From contig NC_020520.1 of the NCBI RefSeq assembly GCF_000348785.1, forward strand, positions 4,092,001-4,156,000: DNA of 64,000 bases, read 5' to 3'. Position numbers and translations under genes: made by a program. The notes under the pieces were generated by a model that saw only the letters and a list, made by a program, of their open reading frames with translations, did not search any database and was not told the DNA's origin. The number at the start of each line of letters is the position of its first letter. Position 1 is the stretch's first letter. Below are positions 3,214 to 23,362 of the stretch, in pieces. This DNA comes from Ilumatobacter coccineus YM16-304 (GTDB lineage Bacteria > Actinomycetota > Acidimicrobiia > Acidimicrobiales > Ilumatobacteraceae).

Positions 3214-3465
3214 CGACCACATCGAGCCTGGCCAAAAATCACCCCCACACGACCACATCTGGCCTGGCCAAAAAACACCCCCAAGCGACCACATCGAGCC
3301 TGGGCAAGAATCACCCCCACGCGACCACATTTGGCCTGGGCAGAAATCACCCTCACGCGACCACATCGAGCCTGGGCAGAAATCACCCTCACGCGACCAC
3401 ATTTGGCCTGGGCAAGAATCACCCTCAGGCGACCACATTTGGCCTGGGCAGAAATCGCCCTGAGC
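3214..3465. repeat. 36-bp tandem repeat array, 7 copies, no spacers (locus A)
   Basis: Seven head-to-tail copies start at 3214, 3250, 3286, 3322, 3358, 3394 and 3430, each exactly 36 bp apart. Each copy begins CGACCACAT, continues with CGAGCCTGGGC or TTGGCCTGGGC, then AAAAATCACC or AGAAATCACC, and ends in CCCACG or CTCACG. Because 36 is a multiple of three and the unit has no stop codon in the relevant frames, long false ORFs cross the array. The same unit recurs at 12376-12519 and 23291-23362. The array sits just past the lipoprotein stop and upstream of the methyltransferase, both on the minus strand. Confidence 0.95.
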
Positions 3466-3474
3466 GGGTTGGTG

Positions 3475-4314
3475 TCAGCAGCCGTCGGCGGCGGTGCCGG
3501 AGAGCACCTGCGTTTCGGGGCCGAAGCTCCCGTCGTCGTCCTGCGAGTACGAGTTGACGACGATCGCGCCCGAGAAGTCGAGCGACGACAGATACGTCTG
3601 CATCGCTGCGCAGATCTCCAGCGCTTCGGGCTCGGTGATGTCGACGCCGCCGACACCGAACTCGCTGTTGCCGTTCGACCACGACCCGAGGCGAGTCCGC
3701 CACGGCGCATCGGTGTGGTTGACGTCGAGGAAGTACTGGGCTCCGTCGATGCTCACCACTGCCGGGTCGACGACGTCGTCGTCGAAGAACGGATCGAACA
3801 GCGGGTCGGGCACGTTGGCGGCTTCGGTGATCAGACCATCCTCCGAGACCGGCGCCTCGACCGGACCGCTGTCGGCATCGTCGTCGCTCTCGGTGATCGA
3901 GAACCCGTCGTCGTCCGACGGCGGGAGGCCGCACTCGTCGACCCCGAACTGCTCGAGGCGTTCGGACGCCGCGATGAACTCCGGGTCGAGAATGATCTCG
4001 AACGCAGCAGCGAAGTCAGCTTCGTCGTCACCGGTGCTCGCGGCTTCGAGATCTTCCATCTCCTGGAACTTGCCGATCAGCACGTCGATGTCGTCGCGCA
4101 CCGCCGACGGCGCAGCGTCACGGATTTCCTCGAGTTGGGCGATGCCGGCGTCGAAGTCGTCGCCGAGGTCGACGTCGTCCTGTTCGTCGGCGGTCCGGAT
4201 CATCTCGCAGAACTCTTCGAGGTTCGACTCGCTGGCGCTCCCCTCGTCGGATCCACACGACGACACGATCAACATGGCGGCGCACGACACGGCGGCAATG
4301 TGCTTCACGTTCAT
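3475..4314 (-). CDS. Putative secreted lipoprotein, unknown function
   Basis: A 279-residue protein beginning MNVKHIAAVSCAAMLIVSSCGSDEG: a short basic n-region, a hydrophobic core and a lipobox-like VSSC with Cys about residue 20, so it is probably lipid-anchored on the outer face of the membrane. The mature part is very acidic (runs such as DEQDDVDLGDD), with an Asp/Glu-rich central segment and a C-terminal portion with a possible small beta domain containing four Cys. I recognise no family. The internal ATG at 4314 was chosen over the one at 4347 because it places the signal peptide at the N-terminus. Confidence 0.7.
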   Translation of the reverse strand: MNVKHIAAVSCAAMLIVSSCGSDEGSASESNLEEFCEMIRTADEQDDVDLGDDFDAGIAQLEEIRDAAPSAVRDDIDVLIGKFQEMEDLEAASTGDDEADFAAAFEIILDPEFIAASERLEQFGVDECGLPPSDDDGFSITESDDDADSGPVEAPVSEDGLITEAANVPDPLFDPFFDDDVVDPAVVSIDGAQYFLDVNHTDAPWRTRLGSWSNGNSEFGVGGVDITEPEALEICAAMQTYLSSLDFSGAIVVNSYSQDDDGSFGPETQVLSGTAADGC

Positions 4315-4417
4315 CGCATCAAAATACGCCACGGCGGTCGACGTCATCGGTGATTATTCACGTCCCGATCGGCCCGTCCGCGACCGACCGCGAGCAGCAT
4401 CGCGACGCTGCGCGGGT

Positions 4418-6247
4418 TCAGCTGTCGGCGAGTTCTGCCAGCTCGAGCCAGGTGGCTTCCAGTTCGTCGAGTGCTGCTTGTGCCTCGACGAGAACGGCAC
4501 CGCGCTCGGCGAGCACGGTGTGGTCGGTGGCCGCAGCCAACTCTTCGTTCAAGCTGTCGACTCGCTTCTGTGCCTTCACCATCGCCTGCTCGGTCTCGCG
4601 CAACTTCCGCCCGATCGTCGATGGGCTCGGGCCCGACGAGGCTTGCTTCGGTTTCCCCTTCGTCGCACGTTTCGTCGAGTCCGGCGACGCCGACCGAGGA
4701 GCCGAGGCCTTCGGCTTTCCGGACAGAGCGGCCCGCTCGGACAGCCACCCGGAGACACCGCCGGGCACTCGCCGCATCGATCCACCGGGTTCGATGGCGA
4801 GCACGTGATCGGCGACGCGGTCGAGGAAGGCGCGGTCGTGGCTCGCCAGGACGACGGCGCCGGGCCAGTCGTCGAGGAACTCCTCGAGCGAACGAAGGGT
4901 GTCGAGGTCGAGGTCGTTCGTCGGCTCGTCGAGGATCAGCAGGTTCGGCTTCTGAGCGAGCACCATCACCAACTGGAGGCGCCGCTTCTCACCACCCGAC
5001 AGCATCCGGGTCGGGGCGTACTGTGCCGTGGCGTCGAACCAGAACTTCTCGAGCAGCGCCTTGTCCTCGTGGTCGGGCTCGCGCAGCGGGCCTGCGACCA
5101 TCTGACGGACGGTGATGTCGGGGTCGAGCGACGCAGCGTGCTGGTCGGCGTAGCCCACGACCGCGGTCTTGCCGACCTTGACCGTCCCCATCGCGGGCTC
5201 GCGACGGCCGGCGACGATGTCGAGCAACGTCGTCTTGCCCGACCCGTTCGGTCCGACGACGGCGAGGCGCGAGCCCGGCTCGATCACGAGGTCGACGCCC
5301 TGGAAGATCGTGGTGGCCGCGTCCCCGTCTCCAAAGCGTTGCCCGACGTCGATCAACTCGACGACCTGGTTGCCGAGCCGGGTGGTTCCAGCGCCGAGTT
5401 CGAGGTCGTTGCCGCGCACACCCAGATCGCGCGGTCCCCCCGACACGATCTCGGACGCCGTGCGGAGGCGGGCCTTCGGTTTCGCGGTGCGGGCCGGGGC
5501 GCCACGACGCAACCAAGCAAGCTCTTTGCGAGCGAGGATCTTGCGCGTCGACTCTTCCTTCTCCTCGCGCTCGACCCGCTCGGCTCGTGCATCGAGATAG
5601 GTGGCATAGGCACTCGTCCCGGCCTCGGCCTGGTGCACGAAACACCGGCCGTGATCGAGTTCGACGACCTTGCTCGGACCGACCTTGGTGGTCAGGCGAT
5701 CGAGCGCATGACGGTCGTGCGTGACCAAGACCAGCGCCGCCGACATCGACACCAATCGCGACTCGAGCCACTCGATGGCTTCGAGGTCGAGGTGGTTGGT
5801 CGGCTCGTCGAGCACGATCATGTCGTGCGCGTTCTCCGCCGCTCCCGACGCGCCGCCGCTGTTGTCGGCGAGCATCTTCGCGAGGGCGACTCGCTTCGCC
5901 TGGCCACCCGAGAGTTCGTCGGTCCGTCGGTCGAACAGCGGCTGCACGCCGAGCGACGTGGCGACCGCAGCGACCTCCCAGCCGTCACCGAGGTACTCCG
6001 CCACAGTGCCCGGCGGCAGGACGGGGTCTTGCTCGAGCATGGTGATCCGGGCTCCGCGACCGAACCGCACCTCGCCCGAATCGGGTTGGAGGTCACCGGT
6101 GAGGATGCGGAGCAGCGTGGTCTTGCCGGAGCCGTTGACCCCGACGACCGCGACTCGATCACCGCGGGAGATGGTGACGTCGAGTCCGTCGAACAGGACC
6201 TTGTCGGGTTGCGCCAGGCGCACGTCCGACACATCAACGCAGATCAC
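4418..6247 (-). CDS. ABC-F family ATPase
   Basis: A 609-residue protein with two ABC ATPase domains on one chain and no membrane segments, the hallmark of ABC-F translation factors that act on the ribosome. The first domain has Walker A GVNGSGKTT (about 36-44), signature LSGGQAKR and Walker B MIVLDEPTNHLD; the second has GPNGSGKTT, LSGGEKRR and LILDEPTNDLD. A linker of charged helix (REEKEESTRKILARKELAWLRRG) separates them. The C-terminus has a basic linker and a coiled coil (LRETEQAMVKAQKRVDSLNEELAA), as in Uup-type members. It starts with GTG, about 20 bp downstream of a strong palindrome. Confidence 0.92.
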   Translation of the reverse strand: MICVDVSDVRLAQPDKVLFDGLDVTISRGDRVAVVGVNGSGKTTLLRILTGDLQPDSGEVRFGRGARITMLEQDPVLPPGTVAEYLGDGWEVAAVATSLGVQPLFDRRTDELSGGQAKRVALAKMLADNSGGASGAAENAHDMIVLDEPTNHLDLEAIEWLESRLVSMSAALVLVTHDRHALDRLTTKVGPSKVVELDHGRCFVHQAEAGTSAYATYLDARAERVEREEKEESTRKILARKELAWLRRGAPARTAKPKARLRTASEIVSGGPRDLGVRGNDLELGAGTTRLGNQVVELIDVGQRFGDGDAATTIFQGVDLVIEPGSRLAVVGPNGSGKTTLLDIVAGRREPAMGTVKVGKTAVVGYADQHAASLDPDITVRQMVAGPLREPDHEDKALLEKFWFDATAQYAPTRMLSGGEKRRLQLVMVLAQKPNLLILDEPTNDLDLDTLRSLEEFLDDWPGAVVLASHDRAFLDRVADHVLAIEPGGSMRRVPGGVSGWLSERAALSGKPKASAPRSASPDSTKRATKGKPKQASSGPSPSTIGRKLRETEQAMVKAQKRVDSLNEELAAATDHTVLAERGAVLVEAQAALDELEATWLELAELADS

Positions 6248-22721: not shown

Positions 22722-22803
22722 CGTTGACGTTCCCACCTGTCGGGCTGACGTTCCGGGTTCGCGGCTGACGTTCTGATACGTCGGCTGACGCGGGTGCCGG
22801 CTC
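22717..22803. repeat. GCTGACGTT direct repeats, about 20-bp period
   Basis: GCTGACGTT or GCTGACGCG begins at 22717, 22744, 22764 and 22784; the last three are exactly 20 bp apart. They follow the GH13 stop and precede the cyclic-nucleotide-binding gene. Two-turn spacing could mean cooperative protein binding, or simple sequence duplication. Confidence 0.6.
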
Positions 22804-22857
22804 GCGAGGCCGCTGTTCGCCGAGCGCTACGTTGGTGGCAACCCTCAGGAGCCTCAG

Positions 22858-23277
22858 ATGACCACCAACATTCTCGACACGCTCGCCGAGCTCGACCTCT
22901 TCGCCGACCTGTCGAAGAAGGAGATCAAGTCGGTACGCCAGCGGATGACACCGATGTCGGTCACGGCCGGAACCGAGCTGATCACCGAAGGTGAGATCGG
23001 GCGCGAGGCGTTCATCATCACCGACGGCGAGGCGACGATCTGGCGTCGCGGTCGTCTCGTCACCACGGTCGGCCCCGGCACCGTGCTCGGCGAGATGGCC
23101 GTCCTCACCGGCATCACGCGCACCGCAACGGTCCGCGCCGAGACCGACCTCGAACTCCAGATGCTCTCTCGCCGCGAGTTCTTCGGTCTGCTCGACGAGT
23201 CACCGACGATGACCCGCAAGCTCCTGGTGTCGACGATCAACCGACTCCAAGAACTCGAACCCGGCCTCCTCCAGTAA
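22858..23277 (+). CDS. Single-domain cyclic-nucleotide-binding protein
   Basis: A 139-residue protein that is essentially one cNMP-binding beta-roll (Crp/cNMP type): ELDLFADLSKKEI, GTELITEGEIGREAFIITDGEATIW, and the phosphate cassette-like GPGTVLGEMAVLTGITRTATVRAE. It has no helix-turn-helix and no kinase domain, so it is not a complete Crp regulator. It may sense cAMP or cGMP and act by protein contact. An AGGAG-type ribosome site is 7 bases upstream of the ATG. It converges on mftD, with two 36-bp repeats in between. Confidence 0.85.
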   Translation: MTTNILDTLAELDLFADLSKKEIKSVRQRMTPMSVTAGTELITEGEIGREAFIITDGEATIWRRGRLVTTVGPGTVLGEMAVLTGITRTATVRAETDLELQMLSRREFFGLLDESPTMTRKLLVSTINRLQELEPGLLQ

Positions 23278-23290
23278 CCAAACGCCCACG

Positions 23291-23362
23291 CGACCGCATC
23301 GAGCCTGGGCAAAAATCACCCTCACGCGTACACATTCAGCCTGGGCAGAAATCACCCTTTCG
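23291..23362. repeat. 36-bp tandem repeat, 2 copies (locus C)
   Basis: Copies at 23291 and 23327, same 36-bp unit as loci A and B, between the converging cyclic-nucleotide-binding gene and mftD. The second copy has ATTCAGCCTGGGC in place of ATCGAGCCTGGGC. Confidence 0.93.

Follow-up and report, generated by a model that had tools for sequence, protein, structure and literature searches.

Repetitive extragenic palindromic (REP) elements and their transposases (RAYT) form systems, also called REPtrons, in which a short intergenic repeat of high copy number is accompanied by a cognate Y1 transposase gene flanked by its own repeat, according to the consulted parts of two publications (PMC6006769, PMC2817692). 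The repeats are usually arranged as inverted pairs (BIME/REPIN). For the insertion sequences (IS) of the IS200/IS605 group such as IS608 and ISDra2, which have the Y1 transposase fold, excision from and insertion into the lagging-strand template have been reported, and the orientation of these elements is reported to follow replication via this template (PMC5371812; also PMC6006769; both in the sections consulted). Here we describe a family of 36-bp tandem repeats in Ilumatobacter coccineus YM16-304, three arrays of which (A, B, and C) lie in a window of 64,000 nucleotides, positions 4,092,001-4,156,000 of the single 4,830,181-bp contig NC_020520.1. The main property of this family is that its arrays are oriented by the direction of replication, a chromosome-wide polarity that sets it apart from REP/RAYT systems.

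The core of the repeat is present in 264 copies in the genome at up to two mismatches (120 forward and 144 reverse, with 0 and 1 in a backward-read control); 260 of these could be located, the other four being two forward and two reverse copies. A search with a 36-column profile (score at least 20), trained on those arrays that had been detected initially and thus mostly on one orientation, gave 53 arrays with 263 copies, namely 49 arrays with two or more copies and four single copies. The units follow each other head-to-tail, with exactly 36 bp in 196 of 210 spacings and 44, 45, 48, or 83 bp in a few arrays, and the strands are mixed within 300 bp at one locus only. The family is intergenic. 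For the 43 arrays covered by gene calls, which came from a simple codon-score caller, the mean coding overlap was 0.6%, compared to 86.6% under random placement, and exceeded 10% in one array. These 43 arrays lie in 15 convergent, 17 tandem, and 11 divergent gene gaps.

The origin of replication was placed near position 0, dnaA lying near 1.5 kb, and the terminus at about 2.80 Mb. The latter position is taken from the GC skew at four-fold sites, corrected for gene strand, which before this point has positive values in 10 of the 13 bins sampled (the remaining three bins of the left arm are slightly negative) and negative in 12 of 12 bins beyond it. The exact position is immaterial because the arrays nearest to the switch are situated at 2.558 and 3.043 Mb. 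A candidate dif site with three mismatches, located in an imperfect inverted repeat (L117 near 1500, genome 2,871,867), may be part of a mobile element and was not used. Left of 2.80 Mb, 22 arrays are on the minus and 2 on the plus strand, and to the right 21 are on the plus and 8 on the minus strand. Accordingly, 43 of the 53 arrays, referred to below as same-sense, share one orientation with respect to the fork (arm versus strand, Fisher p 3.6e-6). All 36 arrays with a mean profile score of at least 50, which together comprise 200 copies, agree with the direction of the fork. Transcription is not the cause of this orientation, since the same-sense arrays in tandem gene gaps are split into eight sense and seven antisense to the genes and the leading strand carries only 580 of the 993 called genes.

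The nearest precedent for this polarity among the open-access papers listed are the GI-GIII tandem REP arrays of Pseudomonas fluorescens SBW25. According to the part of the source consulted (PMC3116915), the chromosome has five of these in forward direction on one side and six in reverse direction on the other. The SBW25 arrays, however, lie near two regions and have a 72/112-bp spacing, whereas here 53 arrays, mostly of 36-bp units, are distributed over both arms. A repeat of Bordetella reportedly shows no co-orientation with the fork (PMC3110155, as far as consulted).

The arrays of opposite orientation differ in part by their units. Ward clustering on sequence alone resulted in a main cluster of 39 same-sense and 2 opposite-sense arrays and a divergent cluster of 4 and 8, respectively (8 of 12 reversed; Fisher p 2e-5). 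The split into orientation subfamilies is only partial because average linkage at two to five clusters does not separate the divergent cluster and because the nearest neighbors of the 37 opposite-sense units are mixed (another opposite-sense array for 14, a tie for 9, and a same-sense array for 14). Position 5 is G in all opposite-sense units and in 32% of the other units. The arms of the unit are complementary at 3.3-3.6 of 8 positions in same-sense units and at 5.5 of 8 in the opposite-sense ones, against a null of 1.9, and the palindromic form of the unit has an exact match at five places. For the opposite-sense arrays at 3276944 and 3869824 the orientation margins amount to just 5 and 3 score units; a 10-copy array, 3833504-3833863, also belongs to this group. 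Five of the ten lie within about 141 kb (genome 3,825,308-3,966,563), where some periods are 44, 48, or 83 bp.

The closest pair of arrays, leaving aside ambiguous palindromic copies, encloses a Y1 transposase gene and nothing else (Table 1); other array pairs are farther apart. The encoded protein matches PF01797 (Y1_Tnp) and, below the 80-bit cut-off, NF047646 (REP_Tyr_transpos; E 1e-17, 64.4 bits). The residues H60, H62, Y119, and N123 are invariant in 13 relatives, and S140 corresponds to a conserved serine motif. At the C-terminus a match to Sigma70_r4_2 (26.1 bits, the cut-off being 25.7) points to a helix-turn-helix (HTH)-like tail. The best match of the structural model (pLDDT 80.8) in the PDB is 4er8, a TnpA-REP with its REP hairpin (E 6e-8), and phmmer relates the sequence to 4er8 at E 0.0017. 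Relatives were found at three loci of the genome-contig collection. This Y1 transposase probably spread the 36-bp repeat.

The genome contains five matches to PF01797, four of them above the cut-off, and the 36-bp arrays flank just one. All five proteins match NF047646 (E 1e-17 to 2e-7) below the cut-off, and the other four genes are each accompanied by different flanking repeats of their own. Each Y1 gene having its own repeat, the HUH and Y---NP motifs, and the fold match to 4er8 are features shared with REP/RAYT systems. Unlike in these systems, the palindrome in the core units is weak and GTAG is found in only 1 of 226 same-sense units, whereas GTGG, which is among the guide forms reported for REPs, is present on one strand, that of the lagging template, in 153 of the 226 (and in 6 of 37 opposite-sense units), an observation made post hoc and irrespective of the position relative to a hairpin. 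The usual inverted pairs are not seen, and we regard the 36-bp system as a variant within the REP/RAYT kind that differs by its head-to-tail arrays.

With the TIRYT/TIR systems (Y1 subclass 2.1, HTH-tailed) it shares the Y1 core, the conserved serine motif, the C-terminal HTH-like tail, and repeats beside the gene, as far as the source consulted in part describes them. The 8-mer GGGGTGAT, which is on one strand of 100 of the 226 same-sense units, is identical in seven of eight positions to the reported TIR motif GGGGWSAS. The exact motif, however, is rare (in 4 of the 226 same-sense units and in none of the 37 opposite-sense ones), and the arrays flanking the gene are direct and not inverted. 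Subclass 2.1 is reported to be without REP-like sequences in the consulted part of PMC6006769. The transposase resembles this subclass. IS200/IS605 elements differ in that the dispersed piece here is a short repeat array without a gene, the 36-bp repeat flanking a Y1 gene once among five.

We consider it somewhat more likely than not that the arrays are REP-like nonautonomous repeats of a RAYT of the HUH/Y1 type that were spread via single-stranded DNA at replication forks and then expanded locally. The substrate of the transposase would be one of the two strands of the repeat, exposed as single-stranded DNA in the lagging-strand template, and the repeat would be copied or inserted into the lagging-strand template elsewhere. 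New arrays would thus all have one orientation with respect to the fork, and slippage or unequal recombination may then alter the number of units. A RAYT acting on one strand of the unit, as IS200/IS605 transposases do, would yield fork-oriented arrays. A more far-reaching version appears possible to us, and we put it forward tentatively: an HTH-tailed Y1 transposase, from a class reported to lack REPs, may spread spacer-free head-to-tail repeats strictly by fork orientation and so mark both arms with polar arrays, and two sequence subfamilies may have become fixed in opposite orientation because the enzyme reads the one or the other strand of a formerly palindromic unit.

Several observations weigh against the spread at the fork. 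First, 10 of the 53 arrays, mostly with divergent units, are in the opposite orientation. Second, core units fold no better than shuffled sequences (z -0.13 and -0.06). Third, better folding of the lagging-template strand is seen in 38 of the 43 same-sense and in 7 of the 10 opposite-sense arrays, but for the same-sense arrays this advantage is accounted for by composition (difference -4.35 observed versus -4.84 after dinucleotide shuffling), and strand folding was therefore rejected as a sign of lagging-strand recognition. Fourth, arrays are absent between 2.558 and 3.043 Mb around the terminus (2,558,000-3,042,800, about 485 kb, all read), whereas IS608 is reported, in the consulted part of PMC5371812, to favor termination sites. 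Finally, a 37-bp sister family that accompanies the second Y1 gene (38 copies at 27 loci; one to two at each locus with the pattern applied) is unpolarized, with five plus and five minus loci on the left and ten plus and seven minus on the right (Fisher p 0.71). Because of this family we infer the cause of the polarity of the 36-bp arrays and do not regard it as demonstrated. The 37-bp flanks around their own Y1 gene are mutually inverted, unlike the 36-bp arrays, and a symmetric mobile unit could be the reason for the lack of polarity.

The alternative that fares best, although we consider it improbable, is that insertion was unbiased and that arrays of one orientation were unstable at the fork and lost. 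Tandem units have clearly been gained or lost: identical pairs make up 15.8% of adjacent internal units, compared to 0.8% between arrays. The 37-bp family with its one or two copies per locus might escape such a loss. Against this, the 10-copy array mentioned above exists in the opposite orientation, though with differing units, and the single copies (4 of 53 arrays) are too few for a check of polarity. The order of units gives further insight into array growth. In 39 core arrays adjacent internal units differ by 3.49 mismatches, compared to 3.95 when their order is shuffled (a value this low arose in 4 of 1000 shuffles), in agreement with the slippage-type local duplication that an earlier note on the window, made from sequence alone, had proposed. 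Position 19 is C in 21 of 34 first units and in 1 of 34 last units, that is, the end units are of different types. As internal neighbors are alike and first and last units differ, the arrays look like ordered elements with distinct ends that were expanded inside.

Somewhat less probable is that the repeats are a polar functional sequence of the KOPS, Chi, or fork-trap type, the orientation of which is kept by selection. The strict orientation of the consensus-like arrays would fit such a role. The 40 commonest octamers of the unit, however, are unskewed outside the arrays (1309 leading and 1208 lagging, in 1.25 of 4.83 Mb), and these counts lend no support to a KOPS-type role of the repeat. 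A different octamer, CGGGGGAG, would be the better KOPS-like fit, with 135 leading and 15 lagging occurrences. Moreover, the divergent cluster is largely reversed, the arrays are unevenly spread with none around the terminus, and the family is found in none of 149 other genomes of the taxonomic family, nine of them of the same genus. CGGGGGAG is the most strand-skewed octamer outside the arrays in the 1.25 Mb read, a KOPS-like candidate that is not contained in the 36-bp unit.

The distribution in relatives was also addressed by searches for the sequence itself. In 60 other genomes of the family the core with up to one mismatch was found at a single place (one mismatch) in one genome, so that the check in relatives suggested by the earlier note did not bring up a wider family. 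The palindromic form with up to three mismatches occurs in 4 of 149 genomes, at one place each and with two or three mismatches. BLAST against the nine other same-genus genomes gave two weak matches, in two of the nine and without a surrounding 36-bp tandem array. No match to the repeat was found in viral contigs (exact core), plasmids, and phages, collections which may omit the window's own records.

A minisatellite that spread by recombination and slippage without any transposase, its vicinity to the Y1 gene being coincidental, is in our view quite unlikely. Unit duplication is evident, the core unit does not look like a hairpin by folding, and neighboring unit pairs are common to several arrays only slightly more often than in shuffles (33 versus 22; 8 of 200 shuffles as high). 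But the closest array pair encloses the Y1 gene alone, and recombination by itself yields no replication polarity. In addition, tandem or hairpin repeats of their own accompany further Y1 genes of this genome and of two others in the genus. At 11 Y1 loci taken from same-genus genomes, the gene is framed by 33-bp arrays in one case and adjoined by a 39-bp or 32-bp pair in two. The suggestion of the earlier note that the repeat is a mobile minisatellite thus stands as far as a dispersed, probably mobile family is concerned, given the further copies that the search of the rest of the genome brought up and the Y1 transposase gene between two arrays.

A role of the arrays in terminating transcription at gene ends, another suggestion of that note, is hardly credible: each of the three window arrays borders the 3' end of a gene and 15 of the 43 arrays are found in convergent gaps, but arrays A and B contain no GC-rich stem followed by a T run (scan of window positions 2500-13800, with array C outside), 11 of 43 arrays are situated between two gene starts, and array orientation is independent of gene direction.

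Within the window the earlier note had described 13 spacerless copies in arrays of seven, four, and two, with unit starts 36 bp apart, and its coordinates and counts are right. An 18-base core with up to three mismatches gives 13 matches, compared to 0.03 expected in shuffled windows, and the copy numbers fall within the genome-wide range of 1 to 10 per array. CRISPR had been excluded correctly, as the spacing equals the unit length in the window arrays and nearly throughout the genome. The stop codon of the major facilitator superfamily (MFS) gene is indeed part of array B (TCA at 12509-12511 within the last unit; gene 12509-13687, minus strand), and long open reading frames do run across array A. 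The location at gene 3' ends applies to all three window arrays and does not extend to the whole genome, as the divergent gene gaps demonstrate. A scan of the window against Rfam gave no match at the gathering score. Another tandem repeat of the window, at 28258-28653, has a period of 172 bp (2.3 copies with 97% matches) and is by its consensus unrelated in sequence to the 36-bp unit.

Table 1. Positions of the 36-bp window arrays and of Y1 transposase genes with their repeats
Feature	Position	Strand	Description
Array A	3214..3465 (genome 4,095,214-4,095,465)	+	7 tandem 36-bp units; flanking genes both minus (2568-3194, 3475-4347)
Array B	12376..12519 (genome 4,104,376-4,104,519)	+	4 tandem 36-bp units; between convergent genes
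Array C	23291..23362 (genome 4,115,291-4,115,362)	+	2 tandem 36-bp units; convergent neighbors 22858-23277 (+) and 23381-24568 (-)
Y1 (HUH) transposase gene	genome 3,742,035-3,742,865		276 aa; outside the window, between two 36-bp arrays
Arrays flanking this Y1 gene	genome 3741889-3741996 and 3742879-3743130	both +	3 and 7 copies; direct, not inverted
Second Y1 gene	repeats at 3404-3481 and 4405-4480 of stretch L164		37-bp tandem pairs on both sides
Further Y1 gene	repeat at 3923-3980 of stretch L163		29-bp pair upstream
Further Y1 gene	repeat at 4757-4886 of stretch L165		45-bp array at 3' end; motif at 6 genome places
Further Y1 gene	stretch L162, flanks of 3550-4395		Long inverted repeat on both sides
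33-bp arrays around Y1 gene of a same-genus genome	G066 contig 235 (L171), 266-361 and 1240-1327		Near-palindromic; 57 forward and 58 reverse matches, dispersed

The spread of REPs is poorly understood, and the view that they are copied via single-stranded DNA at the fork rests mostly on inference. With more than 250 copies and with consensus-like arrays that are without exception oriented with the fork, the present family offers a natural record of this kind of process. The unpolarized 37-bp sister family on the same chromosome provides a built-in control, and both families together make the lagging-strand model directly testable.

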